The notes under the pieces are model-generated. The model did not search any database and was not told the DNA's origin. It saw only the letters and a program-made list of their open reading frames with translations. Source: Geoglobus ahangari (GTDB lineage: Archaea; Halobacteriota; Archaeoglobi; Archaeoglobales; Archaeoglobaceae). Taken from it: a stretch of DNA of 64,000 bases. The stretch is taken from positions 682,001 through 746,000 of the forward strand of contig NZ_CP011267.1 of NCBI RefSeq assembly GCF_001006045.1, written 5' to 3'. Below are positions 8,351-17,128 of this stretch, one piece after another. The position numbers and the translations under genes are program-made. Positions within the stretch are counted from its first letter, which is position 1; each line of letters starts with the position of its first letter.

Positions 8351-9327
8351 AGAGAGTGGCCGTGATTCCGGGGGACGGCATAGGGAAGGAGGTCATGGAC
8401 GCGGCGATGCTCATCCTTGAGAGGCTTGAGATGCCGTTCGAGTATGTCTGGCTTGAGGCGGGGGATGAGGCTGAGAAAAAGTACGGAAAACCCCTGCCTG
8501 ACGAAACGCTTGAGGAGGTCAGGAAGAGCGATGCAGTGCTCTTCGGTGCGGCTGGCGAAACCGCTGCGGACGTGATAGTCAGGCTGAGGCAGGAGCTGAA
8601 CACGTTCGCCAACATAAGGCCAGCGAGGACGTTCAGGGGTGTCGAGTCCATCCACAGCGACGTGAACATGGTCATCGTGAGGGAGAACACCGAGTGCCTC
8701 TACAAGGGCCTTGAGTTTGAGGTCGCTGATGGTGTAACTGAAGCTGTGAGGGTAATAACGAGGGAGGCGAGCGAGAGGATTGTGAGGTATGCCTTCGAGC
8801 TTGCGAAGCGGGAGGGGAGGAAGAGGGTGACGGCCCTGCACAAGGCAAACGTGATGAAGAAGACCTGCGGGCTGTTCAAGCAAGTGTTCTACGAGGTTGC
8901 TGGGGAGTATGAGGGGATTGAGGCGAACGACTACTACATTGACGCGGCGTGCATGTACATGGCCATGAGGCCCCAGATGTTCGACGTGATCGTCACGACC
9001 AACATGTTCGGCGACATCGTTTCAGACCTCGCAGCGGGGGTGGTTGGCGGACTCGGTCTGGCCCCGTCGGCAAACATTGGAGAGAGGCATGCTATCTTCG
9101 AGCCGGTGCATGGAGCAGCCTTCGACATCGCGGGGAAGGGCATAGCCAACCCGACGGCAATGATCCTCACCGCATGCATGATGCTCAGGCACTTCGGCTA
9201 CCTAAGCGAGGCTGAGAGGGTGGAGAGGGCTGTGGAGAAAGTCATAGCCGAGGGCAGGACGACTCCCGATCTGGGGGGAAGCCTCAAAACAATGGAGATG
9301 GCAGAAGAGATAGCAAAGCTTCTCTGA
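8347..9327 (+). CDS. leuB: 3-isopropylmalate dehydrogenase
   Basis: 326 residues. This NAD-dependent oxidative decarboxylase acts in leucine synthesis. It has the N-terminal VIPGDGIGKEV, RENTECLYKG near residue 117, HKANVMK near 157, the metal-binding NMFGDIVSDLAAG near 220 and PVHGAAFDIAGKGIANP near 255. It is translationally coupled to leuD, which supports isopropylmalate over isocitrate or homoisocitrate as substrate, though the family is hard to split by eye. Confidence 0.88.
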   Translation: MKRVAVIPGDGIGKEVMDAAMLILERLEMPFEYVWLEAGDEAEKKYGKPLPDETLEEVRKSDAVLFGAAGETAADVIVRLRQELNTFANIRPARTFRGVESIHSDVNMVIVRENTECLYKGLEFEVADGVTEAVRVITREASERIVRYAFELAKREGRKRVTALHKANVMKKTCGLFKQVFYEVAGEYEGIEANDYYIDAACMYMAMRPQMFDVIVTTNMFGDIVSDLAAGVVGGLGLAPSANIGERHAIFEPVHGAAFDIAGKGIANPTAMILTACMMLRHFGYLSEAERVERAVEKVIAEGRTTPDLGGSLKTMEMAEEIAKLL

Positions 9328-9552
9328 TCAGCCGTATATCTCTTTTTTGGCCTTGTCCATCGCATCGAGTATCTTCCTCTCGAGCTCCATAGCCATGTTC
9401 AGTATCTCCCTCAGCTCGAGCTCGTCTATCTCCTCAAAGTCCGGGTGAGAGCCCACGAAGTCGGAGAGGTTCGTTATCGTCGTCCTTATGTCTCCAAAAC
9501 AGTCGTTGAGCACGCCCATTATGAGCATCATCCTCGTCTTCCTATCGAACAT
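9328..9552 (-). CDS. Small acidic helical protein, unknown
   Basis: 74 residues, highly charged, predicted nearly all alpha-helical, with a single cysteine (NDCFGDIRTT). It ends exactly where leuB ends on the other strand. A TATA-like CTTTTAAATTTT lies about 22-30 nt upstream of the ATG. I recognise no family. The clean promoter spacing and AGG/AGA codon use argue that it is real. Confidence 0.6.
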   Translation of the reverse strand: MFDRKTRMMLIMGVLNDCFGDIRTTITNLSDFVGSHPDFEEIDELELREILNMAMELERKILDAMDKAKKEIYG

Positions 9553-9624
9553 GGTCGTAGTTGGGCGTCTAAAATTTAAAAGTTCGGGTTTTGTGCCGTA
9601 AAAAGAAAAATAAGAAAATGGGGG

Positions 9625-10962
9625 TTATCTCCTTCTCGCCCTCCATGTAACGACCGCAGCAGATATTGCAATAAGACCGGCGAGCAATCCGAACCCCGGC
9701 GCTGACTCGCTCTGCTTCTCGGTCTTTTCAGCTGTGGGTGTCGGCGTAGCCTTGCTTCCCTCTTCTCCGAGCTTTTCAGCCTTCAGCTTCTCCGCCTCGT
9801 ACTTTATTTTCACCAGAGCTGCCTTCATCGGTGCCCATCCGTACCAGTGGCTGTAGTCCGGGTTCATGTGGAACGCTCCCTGAAACGTCCTCATCCTGTA
9901 CTCGAGGAACATCAGGTAGAGCTCCTCCTCTATTGGTGTCTTGACTTCATAGAACTGAAGCAGGTCCGGGGCATACTTCCACCCTTCCGGCTTCTCGAGT
10001 ATTCCGAGGTCGTACAACTCTTTGACAGTCCTTATGGCCTCTGCAAACACCCTGTCGGCCTCTCTGATCATCTTGTCTCCCGCCTCAAGCTGCTCTCTGG
10101 CGAAGTTTTCTGAGTGGCACTGGCTGCAGATCTCGATCATCTTCTCCCTCTCAGCCTGCCACTCCTCCTTGCTCAGCCTCGCGACCTTGCCTGCCTTAAC
10201 GACCTCGAACCTCTCTGTCGGATTTCCGTTCTCGTCCAGCACTCCGAGGGCCTGCAGTATCGTCACCCTGTCCTTCCACCACTCATCGTCATCCTCGGGA
10301 ACCCTCAGGGCGAGGAAGCCCCACGCGGTCATGACGCTGTGATTTCCGTTGGCCATGTGGCAGGTCTGGCACTTTGGTGCCCTGCCTGTGTCTCCCTCAA
10401 TGCTGTAAATGACTCCGTGCTTGCTTGTTGACCACATCTCGTACTGCGGGTGGTCGAAGCCCATGTGGCACGGCAGACATGCCTCAGGCTTCCTCGCCTC
10501 CTCCTTGCTGAATTTGTGCCTCGTGTGGCAGGAGTCGCAGGCCGCAGAGCCGTACCTGTAGGCCTCGTCCTTGTCCTGTATGACTCCAATCTTGTGGCAC
10601 CCGCTGCAGCCCTTGAAGCCCTCGAGATCCTTCAGTGGGGTTGGGATGTGCTGTATGGCCGGCATCGCCTTCATCGCAATCCAGGCATAGTAGTGCTTTC
10701 CGCTTGCGTACTGCTCGTACTGCTTCGGATGGCAGGCCTTGCACGTGTCCGGGGTTGGCATCTTGGCGTTCTGCCAGTCGTCCGAGCTTCTGTGCCCAAC
10801 ACCATGACAGGCTTCACACCCTATGTGTTTGCTCATGTTTCCAGAGAGCCACTGGTCGACTATGCCCGGTGTAACCTGTTTGTGGCAGTCTATGCACTCG
10901 CTCGCGCTTGCGAGCGAGGTCAGGGCCGCGAGCAGGAGCACCAGCAAAACCGCTCGTCTCAT
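9625..10962 (-). CDS. Octaheme c-type cytochrome, hydroxylamine oxidoreductase-like
   Basis: 445 residues. A signal peptide (about 1-20) is followed by eight CxxCH haem sites at residues 23, 49, 74, 119, 142, 162, 198 and 279. The C-terminal helical part holds FQGAFHMNPDYSHWYGWAP, a pattern typical of the HAO/octaheme reductase family. The tail has a Thr/Glu-rich linker, PGF, a hydrophobic segment and RARRR: a PGF-CTERM sorting signal, so surface anchoring by an archaeosortase is predicted. Likely role is extracellular electron transfer or reduction of nitrogen oxides; the sequence does not decide. GGGTGA lies ten nt before the ATG. Confidence 0.9.
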   Translation of the reverse strand: MRRAVLLVLLLAALTSLASASECIDCHKQVTPGIVDQWLSGNMSKHIGCEACHGVGHRSSDDWQNAKMPTPDTCKACHPKQYEQYASGKHYYAWIAMKAMPAIQHIPTPLKDLEGFKGCSGCHKIGVIQDKDEAYRYGSAACDSCHTRHKFSKEEARKPEACLPCHMGFDHPQYEMWSTSKHGVIYSIEGDTGRAPKCQTCHMANGNHSVMTAWGFLALRVPEDDDEWWKDRVTILQALGVLDENGNPTERFEVVKAGKVARLSKEEWQAEREKMIEICSQCHSENFAREQLEAGDKMIREADRVFAEAIRTVKELYDLGILEKPEGWKYAPDLLQFYEVKTPIEEELYLMFLEYRMRTFQGAFHMNPDYSHWYGWAPMKAALVKIKYEAEKLKAEKLGEEGSKATPTPTAEKTEKQSESAPGFGLLAGLIAISAAVVTWRARRR

Positions 10963-11070
10963 GGCAATTCACCCTAAATCTTCTCACGGGTCTGTAATAA
11001 TTAATGATTAACCCTAAGATCTTCGGGGTCATGCAAACATTTTTAACGAATAATTTGGAATGGTAGGTTC

Positions 11071-12072
11071 ATGAGGTACATCGGTCTCGACATCGGTACG
11101 AATTACACAAAGGCCACGGCTGATGGTGAGAAGGTCACGATTTTCCCCAGTCTTGTTGTTTACGGTGAGGAGAAGGAGTGGAGCCTCAAGGGGTCGGAGG
11201 AGAGGGAGGTTTACGTCGGCGATGAGGCAGCATACATGGCGCAGAACATGGAGAACGTTGAGGTGCTGAGGCCACTGCATGAGGGCAGGCTGATGCACAA
11301 CTCATACATCGAGCTCGCGAAGCATGCGCTCAGCCTTCTGAACGCAGAGGGTGAGAAGTTCGTGGCCACCGGCCTGCCGGTGAAGAGCTCCAAGAAGGAG
11401 AGGGCAGAGCTGGTTAGTGAGCTGAAGCAGGCGCTGAACTGCGATGTCCTCCTCCTCCCCCAGCCGGTTGGCTCCATGGCCTACATGGGCGTCAACACAG
11501 GTGTGTGCATAGACATAGGCTTTGGAACGACTGACGTGGTTGTGCTCGCGGACATGGAGTACCTGAAGGGAGACACACTTCTTGTGGGGGTTGACAAGAT
11601 CTACGAGGGCATGGAGATGGCAATCAGGAACAAGTTCGGCATAACGATAACTCCCGAGGAGATGACGAAGCTTCTCGCAGAGGAGGGCTTCGAGGTCGGC
11701 AGGGTGAGGGGAGGAAAGAGAGTCTCGGTGAAAAGGGAGGACGTCATGGAAGACTACAACGAGATGATGAGGTCGTGGGTAGAGAGGATAGTCACGAGGG
11801 TGAACCTGCTCCTCGAGGGCCTGTCAGTCTCGCTTGTGGAGAACATAATTCTGAGCGGTGGCGGTGCAAGGCTGCCGGGAGTTTACGAGGAGTTCAGGGA
11901 GCACTTCAAGGACATAGGCGAGATAAAGGTGCCTGACGATCCTGTAACTGCAAATGCGAGGGGTTTTTACAGGCTCGCAAAGCTGTTTGCCGGGGAGGAG
12001 AGTAAAGAGGAAAAGACAGAGGATGTCAGGGAGGAGAAGCCGGAAGGCAGGAAGGGTAAGAAGAAGAGATGA
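11071..12072 (+). CDS. Actin-like ATPase (ParM/Ta0583-like)
   Basis: 333 residues. It is a member of the actin/Hsp70 ATPase superfamily, with phosphate-1 motif LDIGTNYTK (residues 6-14), phosphate-2 motif CIDIGFGTTD (147-156) and adenosine motif ILSGGGARLPG (260-270). The C-terminal 30 residues are a charged K/E-rich tail. It resembles plasmid ParM/StbA and Thermoplasma Ta0583 rather than crenactin or MreB. The stop overlaps the start of a ribbon-helix-helix gene (ATGA), like ParM followed by ParR. A TATA-like CATTTTTAACG lies about 29 nt upstream. Confidence 0.87.
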   Translation: MRYIGLDIGTNYTKATADGEKVTIFPSLVVYGEEKEWSLKGSEEREVYVGDEAAYMAQNMENVEVLRPLHEGRLMHNSYIELAKHALSLLNAEGEKFVATGLPVKSSKKERAELVSELKQALNCDVLLLPQPVGSMAYMGVNTGVCIDIGFGTTDVVVLADMEYLKGDTLLVGVDKIYEGMEMAIRNKFGITITPEEMTKLLAEEGFEVGRVRGGKRVSVKREDVMEDYNEMMRSWVERIVTRVNLLLEGLSVSLVENIILSGGGARLPGVYEEFREHFKDIGEIKVPDDPVTANARGFYRLAKLFAGEESKEEKTEDVREEKPEGRKGKKKR

Positions 12073-12581
12073 GGGTCGGAGTTGACCTCCCCGCAGACAT
12101 AGAGAGAGCCCTGCTGAGGAAGTGTGAGGAGCTCGACATCTCCCCATCGGAGTTCATAGTCCAGCTGCTCGAGTGGTACTTCTTCAAGAGGAAGAGAGAC
12201 ATCCCGAAGGAGGTCATAGAGTTCGTCAACTTCGCGAGAAAGAAGGGCGTGGAGAAGGCCAAGGCGTGCAGGTACAGCGATGGCAAGTTCTGTGCGCTGG
12301 AAACTTACGCGAGGCTCGACATAGATGCCGAGCCCCAGCCCCTGCATCCCTACAACTGTCTATTCTGCAGCTACTTCTCGGACAGGAGGCTGGAGGAGAA
12401 GAAGGATGTTAAGGTAACCGCTCAGGACGCGGAGAAAGCTTACCAAATGGCCAAGCTCGCTGCACAGATAATCGTGAAGGAGTTCGGGGACAAGCTCGGG
12501 TACAGGCCGAAGATGAAGATTGAAAAGGAAGAGAGGGAGATAAAGAGGGATGACATCAGGAAGCTCGTTGAGGATTGGTAG
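12069..12581 (+). CDS. Ribbon-helix-helix protein with four-cysteine cluster
   Basis: 170 residues. The first 43 match the RHH fold: strand MRVGVDLP, helix DIERALLRKCEELDI, then SPSEFIVQLLEWYFFKRKR. A second part has four cysteines (67, 75, 97, 100; C-x7-C ... CLFC), likely a zinc or Fe-S site, and the C-terminus is a charged helix. RHH proteins bind DNA as dimers. The ATGA overlap with the actin-like gene suggests a functional pair, as with ParR and ParM. The cysteine cluster is not part of known ParR proteins. Confidence 0.8.
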   Translation: MRVGVDLPADIERALLRKCEELDISPSEFIVQLLEWYFFKRKRDIPKEVIEFVNFARKKGVEKAKACRYSDGKFCALETYARLDIDAEPQPLHPYNCLFCSYFSDRRLEEKKDVKVTAQDAEKAYQMAKLAAQIIVKEFGDKLGYRPKMKIEKEEREIKRDDIRKLVEDW

Positions 12582-13440
12582 GGTAAGCGTCAACATAAAC
12601 GGGGACTTTGAGGACGACGTCCTGATCGAGAAGGCGAAGAGGGTTGAGGGGCGCGTGGACACGGTATGGGTGGGGGAGTCGGACTTCTTCAGGAGCCCGT
12701 TCCATGTGGCAAGGCTGATCCTCGAGAACACGAACCTAAACGTGGGGTTCGGCATTCTCAGGGCTGGAGGGTGTGAAAGGGCTCTTCAAAGCCTGAAGGA
12801 GCTTTTGGGCTATGAGGGCAGGGTTTTCGTTGGAATAGCTGCAGGGGATGGGGGGAGAATCTCACACGCCCTTGAGTGCATAAGGCTGCTGAAGGAGAAG
12901 CTCCCGTTTCCCGTTCTCGGAGGCGGAACTGGAAGGAGGAGCATTGACAGGCTCTCAAGGGTTGCAGACGGGATGCTGCTCAACCACGTCTCCCCGCAAC
13001 ACGTCAGGTGGGCGGTTGGGATGAGTTCTTCAAGATTCAACGCAGCCTACGGGCCCGCGTTAATCCTGCCCTCAGAGTTCGAGCAGGATCTCCTGCTTGC
13101 AGCTGTACTTGTTATGGGGAGCAGCGTGGGCTTCCTCAGAGAGATGGGCTACCTGAGCGTTTACGATGAGCTGAAGAGAATAGACCTCATGTCGCTCATA
13201 GAGCGCAGGCAGAAGGGCGAGGATCTGAGCGACGTTCAGGACTACAGGCTGCTGATGAGGTACAAAAGCTTTCTGCTCGACAGGTTCACGCTCTCGGGAG
13301 ACCTGCAGACCGTGGCCGATAAAATCGCAGAACTCTTAAAAGTCTGCGACCACGTGGTTCTCGGGGATCCGTTCTTCAGGGACGAGAATTTCCACAGAAA
13401 GCTTGCAGATCTTTTGAAAGAGTTAAAGAAAAGAATTTAG
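12550..13440 (+). CDS. Luciferase-like (F420-dependent type) oxidoreductase homologue
   Basis: 296 residues. The fold pattern suggests a short TIM barrel of the luciferase/methylene-tetrahydromethanopterin reductase superfamily: VDTVWVGESDFF, NLNVGFGILRAGG, RVFVGIAAGDGG, PVLGGGTGRRSIDRLSRVADGMLLNHVSP, and a C-terminal SGDLQTVADKIAELLKVCDHVVLGDP. It is shorter than Mer (about 330), so it is probably a paralogue of unknown substrate. It overlaps the RHH gene by 32 nt from ATG 12550; TTG 12568 is an alternative start. Confidence 0.65.
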   Translation: MTSGSSLRIGRVSVNINGDFEDDVLIEKAKRVEGRVDTVWVGESDFFRSPFHVARLILENTNLNVGFGILRAGGCERALQSLKELLGYEGRVFVGIAAGDGGRISHALECIRLLKEKLPFPVLGGGTGRRSIDRLSRVADGMLLNHVSPQHVRWAVGMSSSRFNAAYGPALILPSEFEQDLLLAAVLVMGSSVGFLREMGYLSVYDELKRIDLMSLIERRQKGEDLSDVQDYRLLMRYKSFLLDRFTLSGDLQTVADKIAELLKVCDHVVLGDPFFRDENFHRKLADLLKELKKRI

Positions 13441-15090: not shown

Positions 15091-15248
15091 CCCCAGACCA
15101 CCTCCTCCCGGGGATTTCTGGCATTAGTGGAATGGAACTTCTATATAAGAATTTTGGTAAGCTGAAGGTGGCTCGTCGAACTCCTTTCTTCAAATGCCCC
15201 GACGAGATTCCGAAACGGTTATCTAAGTGGATCCGGAGATATTCTGTC

Positions 15249-16271
15249 ATGCATGAGCTCCGCTTCAATCCCGACCTCTGCTTCAGCTGCCAGACCTTCT
15301 CCTGCCTGACGGAATGCAGCTATCTGAGCTACGATTTTGACGGTGCGAGGGAGGAGAGACTCAAACTTGCGAGGGGTGAGTACAGCAGGGTGCTCGAGGA
15401 GTGCTTCACGTGTTATGGCTGTGAGGAGTACTGCGAGCATGGCAACCATCCTTTCTACAGGATCGTTGAGCTGCAGGAGAGGTTTGGCGTGAAGGTGGCT
15501 GATGACACTTTTCTCTCCCACCTGCTTGAACGCTACCGTGCTGACGGAGAGTTCAGGCCGAGGGAGGTTGGAAATAAAGTTGTGCACATCTGCCTGTTCC
15601 CTCAGCTAAGGGACGCGATAACCGGGAGGCTCTTTGAGGGGTATGATGTCGTGAGGGGCAGGCACCTGTTCTGCAACCTGATCTACCTGCACTACGGCAT
15701 GATCTCGGTGATAAAGGAGAGGGCAGCTAAGACGATCGAGAACTTCAGGAAGCTCGGGGTTGATGAGGTGGTGATGTACCACGACGAGTGCTACGGCTTC
15801 TACACCTCATTTGCAGAGGCCTACGGAATCGAGGTGCCGTTTAAAGCGGTGCACCTCTTCGACCACCTCTATTCCCGGCTTAAAGAGCTCGAGGATGGTG
15901 TTGAGGAGCTTGGTATAAAGGTCGCGTACCAGAGGCCGTGCAGCAACAGGCTCTCGCCGGAAACTGACAGAACTCTGGACAGGATTTTCGAGCTGATCGG
16001 CGTTGAGAGGGTGGAGAGGGAGTACGACCGAAGAAACGCCCTCTGCTGCGGCGCGTCATTCGAGTTCAAGGGGGACCTTGAGACCGCGAGAAGGCTGCAG
16101 GAGAGAAATCTGAGGGATATGGCAGATTCAGGAGCGAGCCACGTCGCCTTCAACTGCCCGATGTGCTACCTGACCCTCGGAAAGAAGGTCAGGGAGATGG
16201 GCCTGACGCCGATAATGGTCAGCGAGCTCTGCAAGATGGCGATAGGGGAGGAGCCGTTTATGATGTTTTAG
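15249..16271 (+). CDS. HdrD-like iron-sulfur protein with CCG domain
   Basis: 340 residues from ATG 15249. The frame is open from 15132, but the extension covers the promoter zone between this gene and the thermosome. The N-terminus has two ferredoxin-type cysteine groups (NPDLCFSCQTFSCLTEC and CFTCYGCEEYCEHG). The C-terminus has one CCG-type domain (ALCCGASFEF, FNCPMCYLTLG) as in HdrB/HdrD and GlpC. It probably carries electrons for a heterodisulfide reductase-like or lactate/glycolate-type oxidoreductase. The partner is not adjacent. Confidence 0.8.
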   Translation: MHELRFNPDLCFSCQTFSCLTECSYLSYDFDGAREERLKLARGEYSRVLEECFTCYGCEEYCEHGNHPFYRIVELQERFGVKVADDTFLSHLLERYRADGEFRPREVGNKVVHICLFPQLRDAITGRLFEGYDVVRGRHLFCNLIYLHYGMISVIKERAAKTIENFRKLGVDEVVMYHDECYGFYTSFAEAYGIEVPFKAVHLFDHLYSRLKELEDGVEELGIKVAYQRPCSNRLSPETDRTLDRIFELIGVERVEREYDRRNALCCGASFEFKGDLETARRLQERNLRDMADSGASHVAFNCPMCYLTLGKKVREMGLTPIMVSELCKMAIGEEPFMMF

Positions 16272-16284
16272 GTTGTGACTTTCT

Positions 16285-17073
16285 TTAACATCCATCGAGT
16301 AATGCCAGAGTTTCTCCGTCTTCTGTTAGCCTCAAGATAACATTTCTGCCGATTTTCTCATGAGTTATGAGTCCTCTTGACGCGAGCTTAGATACCACTC
16401 TCCTGTGCAATTTCGTGAGAACTCTCTGCCTGCTTTCACGCGTCATTACTTCTTCCTTCTTGTACTCGCACCTGTAGTCCTGTGGGAATCGCTTACAGAA
16501 CTCTTTTGCGAGCTCTTCGAGCTTCATGTATTTTCTTTCACTCAAATACAGTTGGGAAATTGCAAACCTCTCCTCTTCACTTAATCTTACCATCTCTACT
16601 CTTGGGACTTCCAACACCCTCGCCTTTTGACACACACTCCTCCCGTACTTCTTTATCTCTTCTTCGTTTTCTGCATACCTGTCGGCCATAACGTAATACA
16701 TCCTCACTCCGTGATACCACCCCACAAGCGCCGATGCAATTGAAACAAGTCTTCCATGAGATGATAGGTTTATGTAGACTTTACTACCCCTCTCCTTTTC
16801 TTTTCTTACGGCTTTTGAAATTTCTCTGAGCGCCTCTCTAAAGTCAAAGAGGTCAGCATAGCTAATGACAACTTCCAGCCCCATTTTCTTCAGATCATGT
16901 GTGACCGCAGCCTCGAAAAAAGACTGTATCTCATACAGATCGTATTTCTCTGCATGTTCCTTTCCAATAGTTATTACGTGCGCTCTCACACCACCTAATA
17001 CTTTGATCGGCTCTGTGACGACACTCCTCTCGAATCCAAGGGGTATGATGTGGACAACTTCTATTGTTCTCAT
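16285..17073 (-). CDS. CARF-like/winged-helix regulator (DUF6293, HFX_2341-like)
   Basis: 262 residues from ATG 17073; in-frame ATGs lie upstream at 17091 and 17115. The N-terminal half has a Rossmann-like pattern (VEVVHIIPLGFE, RAHVITIG, KVYINLSSHGRLVSIASALVGW), as in CARF-type sensors. The C-terminal half contains a winged helix (REVLTKLHRRVVSKLASRGLITHEK-like segment and wing NVILRLTEDGE). HFX_2341-type and Csa3 proteins share this design. A perfect palindrome lies just upstream. Autoregulation and control of the divergent operon are likely. A nucleotide ligand is inferred only from the family. Confidence 0.7.
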   Translation of the reverse strand: MRTIEVVHIIPLGFERSVVTEPIKVLGGVRAHVITIGKEHAEKYDLYEIQSFFEAAVTHDLKKMGLEVVISYADLFDFREALREISKAVRKEKERGSKVYINLSSHGRLVSIASALVGWYHGVRMYYVMADRYAENEEEIKKYGRSVCQKARVLEVPRVEMVRLSEEERFAISQLYLSERKYMKLEELAKEFCKRFPQDYRCEYKKEEVMTRESRQRVLTKLHRRVVSKLASRGLITHEKIGRNVILRLTEDGETLALLDGC

Positions 17074-17079
17074 TGTTAT

Positions 17080-17098
17080 CTTTGTTATCATAACAAAG
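17080..17098. promoter_or_regulatory. Palindromic operator between divergent genes
   Basis: CTTTGTTAT-C-ATAACAAAG is a perfect 9-bp inverted repeat with a 1-nt centre. A further direct half copy TTGTTATC lies at 17073-17080. It sits between the TATA-like element (17100-17109) and the start of the CARF-like regulator gene, an ideal place for autorepression. Confidence 0.65.
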
Positions 17099-17099
17099 T

Positions 17100-17109
17100 A
17101 AAAATTTTT
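17100..17109. promoter_or_regulatory. Palindromic TATA-like element shared by two divergent genes
   Basis: AAAAATTTTT reads the same on both strands. Its centre is about 25 nt before ATG 17129 (plus) and about 31 nt before ATG 17073 (minus), so it could serve both promoters. Confidence 0.5.
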
Positions 17110-17128
17110 CGACATACACTCTACAGCT

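Follow-up and report, generated by a model that had tools for sequence, protein, structure and literature searches.

A chromosomal actin-like ATPase and a ribbon-helix-helix protein with a four-cysteine site in Archaeoglobaceae: a candidate ParMR-like pair

The segregation of euryarchaeal chromosomes is largely unknown, and two overlapping genes on the chromosome of Geoglobus ahangari raise the question whether an actin of the plasmid partition type handles DNA in these organisms. A preliminary description of the locus had reported an actin-like ATPase gene followed by a gene for a ribbon-helix-helix (RHH) protein with four cysteines, and had compared the two to the ParMR cassettes of plasmids. 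If that likeness is functional, the pair would be a candidate for actin-driven handling of DNA that can be tested directly. The pair was analysed within a window of 64,000 nucleotides; all positions below are those of the window, and the features of the pair, its promoter and the gene that follows it lie on the + strand.

The genes are organized exactly as claimed. The actin-like ORF (11071..12072, 333 aa) is intact and its stop codon overlaps the start of the RHH ORF (12069..12581, 170 aa) by the four nucleotides ATGA, an overlap that is kept across most genera. The chromosomal location was borne out as well: the host genome is one contig of 1,770,093 bp, in which both genes are present in single copy. 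Comparison of the upstream regions of 30 loci by inspection yielded a putative BRE/TATA promoter element (ATGCAAACATTTTTAA, 11031..11046), and a similar box is present upstream in other genomes of the same genus. A pair of ACCC...GGGT elements that precedes the actin gene (about 10970-11030) was discarded, because it was not seen in the sister species. The actin gene adjoins a divergently transcribed gene for a multihaem c-type cytochrome (9625-10962). Farther downstream, an HFX_2341-like protein with weak Cas_APE2256 similarity and a winged-helix C-terminus (16285-17115) is encoded near a CCG-domain iron-sulfur protein (15132-16271).

Both genes are restricted to Archaeoglobaceae. For the RHH-Cys4 protein, 84,980 species genomes were scanned and gave 32 loci, all labelled Archaeoglobi or below. 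A weak RHH match elsewhere in the phylum (G147) was rejected, as its likeness is limited to the RHH and it has no four-Cys site. The RHH-Cys4 protein was found in 41 of 59 Archaeoglobi genomes. Among the 43 good genomes (completeness of 90% or more, contamination of 5% or less), 29 hold both genes, 11 hold neither, three hold the RHH gene only and none holds the actin gene only (Fisher p 6e-8, kinship not corrected for). The three RHH-only genomes are G014, G165 and G207; in G207 the RHH gene is truncated by the end of a contig, and a weak actin match was discounted there, since the gene concerned is the one that matches salactin. A lack of conserved linkage had been named as a ground for rejecting the cassette, and this was not borne out. 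Linkage is strong yet not absolute: the genes are adjacent in 24 of the 29 good genomes that hold both and apart in five. Two of these five (G043 and G092) underwent a rearrangement that separated actin from RHH with the flanks kept, and the other three belong to another genus. The pair is dispensable: an entire genus, represented by five genomes, yielded no copy of it.

The first 43 or so residues of the second protein (12069..12197) had been read as an RHH domain, and three observations uphold this. In the AF2 model an extended segment at the N-terminus precedes helices at residues 9-21 and 26-44; of 22 isolated N-termini, 11 matched Pfam RHH_1, the next families being NikA-like and RHH_5; and profile-profile comparison with RHH_1 proteins of the same genome gave a probability of 60% (E 8.5e-5, 42 columns), against at most 3% for 40 column-shuffled control profiles. 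By itself the window protein reaches no Pfam cut-off, those of the RHH families included, so that its place in the RHH superfamily is given by the beta-alpha-alpha N-terminus together with the profile similarity. Foldseek with the model returned no significant match; the best was CdbA, which we take to be an RHH-type DNA-binding protein. No ParR was present among the PDB or plasmid matches, and viral contigs yielded no relatives of the protein.

Behind the RHH domain lies the four-Cys site (C67-x7-C75 ... C97-x2-C100, 12267..12368), with conserved SDG and CLFC motifs. All four cysteines that had been pointed out are invariant in the 25-26 homologues. The protein ends, after a variable linker, in a conserved tail (12549..12578) with the consensus [VI]-[KRE]-[KR]-L-[LIV]-x-[DN]-W; in 26 sequences conservation reaches 96% for K165, 92% for L166 and 96% for W170, versus 40% for the linker. 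A conserved C-terminal tail is also found in ParR, and together with the joint loss of both genes (see below) it strengthens the original reading of the locus.

The gene that follows (12550..13440) encodes a distant Mer/luciferase-like F420-type enzyme. Linkage with the RHH gene is seen in most genera, and the two genes adjoin in G165 and in the genus to which the three genomes with separated actin and RHH genes belong. As a core third component the Mer-like gene was rejected: 7 of the 11 good genomes that lack the pair have it, and it is therefore a neighbour and not a dependent part, probably outside the machine. The Mer-like gene is thus linked, yet evolves independently of the actin/RHH pair. 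In G069 and G204 its homologues are interrupted by in-frame stops, and the gene seems to be decaying in their genus.

These arrangements bear on the best-surviving alternative, in which the RHH-Cys4 protein senses metal or redox state, controls transcription of the operon to which it belongs (actin, RHH and sometimes the Mer-like gene) and makes no contact with actin filaments. RHH proteins are mostly repressors, an invariant four-Cys site suits a sensor, and the RHH gene persists without actin in G014 and G165 and adjoins the Mer-like gene where actin is elsewhere or absent. However, inspection of the 30 loci revealed no conserved operator-like repeat upstream of actin, and a simple repressor would not be expected to have a conserved Trp tail behind a variable linker; moreover, the Mer-like gene does not depend on the RHH gene, since it occurs in 7 of the 11 good genomes in which RHH and actin are both lacking. 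We regard regulation of this kind as possible but rather unlikely.

The affinities of the actin bear on a second alternative. All three ATPase motifs that had been ascribed to it lie in strongly conserved blocks: phosphate-1 (LDIGTNYTK, 11086..11112), phosphate-2 (DIGFGTTD, columns D148-D155, 11512..11535) and adenosine (SGGGARLPG, 11854..11880). In 20 homologues, with an average column identity of 69%, D7, G9, T10, N11, K14, D148, G150, G152-D155 and G263-265 are invariant, as are L268 and P269 of the adenosine motif. After an acidic linker the protein ends in a Lys/Arg-rich stretch (12037..12069), and nearly all homologues have such a basic end. This conserved end, which is also rich in Gly, may bind DNA, membrane or the partner protein.

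Pfam models over cut-off for the actin were ALP_N (56.2 bits), MreB-like_C and MreB_Mbl (56.9 versus a cut-off of 27), and PF00022, the crenactin/actin family, was just missed (26.2 versus 27). In NCBIfam nothing was over cut-off for either the actin or the RHH-Cys4 protein; the actin scored 63.2 bits with NF010498 (a plasmid ParM family, cut-off 417) and 56.3 bits with NF010539 (MreB, cut-off 293). PHROG_691, annotated as 'partition protein', gave 114.5 bits over residues 2-305 of the window actin and matched all 20 homologues. This match is discriminating, because two plasmid ParMs used as controls scored 211 and 123 bits, versus 27.9 for E. coli MreB and 22.8 for an Archaeoglobi salactin. 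The closest plasmid matches are annotated ParM proteins at ∼25% identity, and the parM of one such relative, from Brevibacillus, has a small RHH-like gene directly downstream. Judged by sequence, then, the actin groups with plasmid and phage ParM-type partition proteins (the ALP/ParM-StbA group) and not with salactin or E. coli MreB. The folds nearest to its AF2 model are MreB and MamK, and ParM is absent from the first 50 fold matches. Overall, the actin sits between known groups.

Identity with salactin was rejected, since PF25229 gave 18.6 bits (cut-off 27.1) and salactin forms a separate family with no member in the window's genome. Of the 59 Archaeoglobi genomes, 15 have salactin-family genes as a second actin, including four of the window's genus (G127, G034, G155 and G194).

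The second alternative holds that the actin forms a shape or cytoskeletal filament similar to those of MreB, MamK or crenactin, with the RHH protein as an arcadin-2-like modulator whose DNA binding is secondary. The modelled fold and the MreB_Mbl match favour it, and the anatomy of the tail matches that of arcadin-2. Weighed against this, the controlled family-level score favours ParM-type proteins over MreB, no mreC, mreD or arcadin genes were recognised near the actin gene, and an RHH fold would be odd in a purely sequestering protein. We consider a cytoskeletal role of this kind improbable.

The ways in which the pair has been lost also speak to its function. In G218, G215 and G122 both genes are missing, and the Mer-like and HisC genes still adjoin; in G057 a distance of 139 nt separates the flanking genes. 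In G014 (99% complete) actin fragments such as KVVATGLLLKSLKSERKK, with stops and frame changes, lie just upstream of an intact RHH gene, marking a decayed actin pseudogene (about 9000-9950 of that genome's locus L086). The RHH protein of this genome ends in Leu, whereas the other aligned members (26 aligned) end in Trp. This coincidence of Trp loss with actin decay is a single case, and G165 (96% complete) has an RHH protein with the tail Trp kept and no actin found. That the two genes merely share an operon of convenience and have unrelated functions agrees with their separation in five good genomes and the solitary RHH gene in three, but is very improbable given that they are lost jointly while their neighbours stay, that actin never occurs without RHH in good genomes, and that the tail Trp is gone where actin died.

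We therefore return to the ParMR-type reading, in which the two genes constitute a vertically inherited chromosomal pair of actin and adaptor working like plasmid ParMR; taken as a whole, with tail docking and a metal site at the cysteines, we give this explanation somewhat better than even chances. The RHH protein would dimerise and bind DNA via its N-terminal domain, and its short Trp-containing tail would hold the actin, thereby tying an ATP-driven filament to DNA. ParR starts with an RHH domain and ends in a conserved, unstructured tail, with which it binds ParM in a hydrophobic pocket (PMC5016525), and in arcadin-2 a C-terminal peptide, with contacts that include Trp and other hydrophobic residues, binds a matching groove of crenactin (PMC5173319). 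An RHH dimer on DNA with actin-holding tails is the most likely arrangement, because its plan is the same as that of ParR and arcadin-2. The cargo role would most plausibly be positioning and segregation of the chromosome or nucleoid. Between these two ends of the protein, the four cysteines could form a metal site (Zn or Fe-S) with a structural or regulatory role, and the pair is possibly metal- or redox-gated. The fuller proposal, a native archaeal actin-based machine for chromosome or nucleoid segregation in which the metal or Fe-S site of the RHH protein gates the filament-DNA link by redox or metal state, we consider unlikely.

Several observations count against the ParMR-type reading. 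A search for tandem repeats bound by the RHH protein had been suggested; no parC-like iterons turned up, either at the locus itself or in the regions preceding the homologues (30 loci). The in-frame genes of locus L064 were modelled with AF2 as a fusion read through their stops, a modelling device that makes no claim on translation; the actin part was confident, and the RHH part, with two rows only, was of low confidence and left the tail undocked. The nearer strong Orc1/Cdc6 gene is ∼120 kb from the locus. To these are added the five genomes in which the two genes are apart, G165 with its RHH protein and no actin found, the MreB/MamK-like modelled fold and the dispensability of the pair.

No description of the archaeal actin/RHH-Cys4 pair was found in the literature searched, the coverage of which was incomplete; it can be compared with five known systems. 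The SegAB system of Sulfolobales likewise combines an archaeal chromosomal motor with a small DNA-binding adaptor, and SegB has an RHH fold; SegA is a ParA-type Walker ATPase, whereas the motor of the present pair is an actin. Crenactin is an archaeal actin whose partner arcadin-2, encoded in the same gene cluster, likewise carries a conserved C-terminal peptide with a Trp behind a variable linker; in contrast to our pair, no RHH domain or four-Cys site is described for arcadin-2, and crenactin is closer to eukaryotic actin (PMC5173319). Salactin is a dynamic haloarchaeal actin with a suggested role in DNA partition; the part of the source available describes no adaptor, and the actin of the pair belongs to a separate family (PMC10746226). 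Chromosomal ParMR cassettes (cParMR) have been described in the bacteria Desulfitobacterium and Clostridium (PMC12270681). Like the pair, these are ParMR-like cassettes of chromosomal location, and their RHH partner is highly divergent, but they are bacterial and only occasional on chromosomes, whereas the archaeal pair occurs in most genera of one family and has a four-Cys adaptor.

The closest comparison is with plasmid ParMRC (R1, pSK41, Alp). The cassette claimed at the outset stands in its gene order, its protein layout and the ParM/StbA-like score of its actin, and falls short in parC-like repeats and ParR homology; the pair is ParMR-like by layout, and formal membership of ParMRC fails on these two points. 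In both systems the gene of a ParM-type actin directly precedes that of an RHH protein whose C-terminal tail is conserved, and PHROG_691 and ALP_N relate the archaeal actin to plasmid ParM/StbA. The archaeal pair differs in being chromosomal and vertically inherited with no parC-like iterons found, in an RHH partner with an added four-Cys site and no detectable ParR homology, and in an actin whose modelled fold is nearest to MreB and MamK. A ParM-type actin kept with a partner of the DNA-binding type would show that a plasmid-type partition module has been taken into vertical inheritance.
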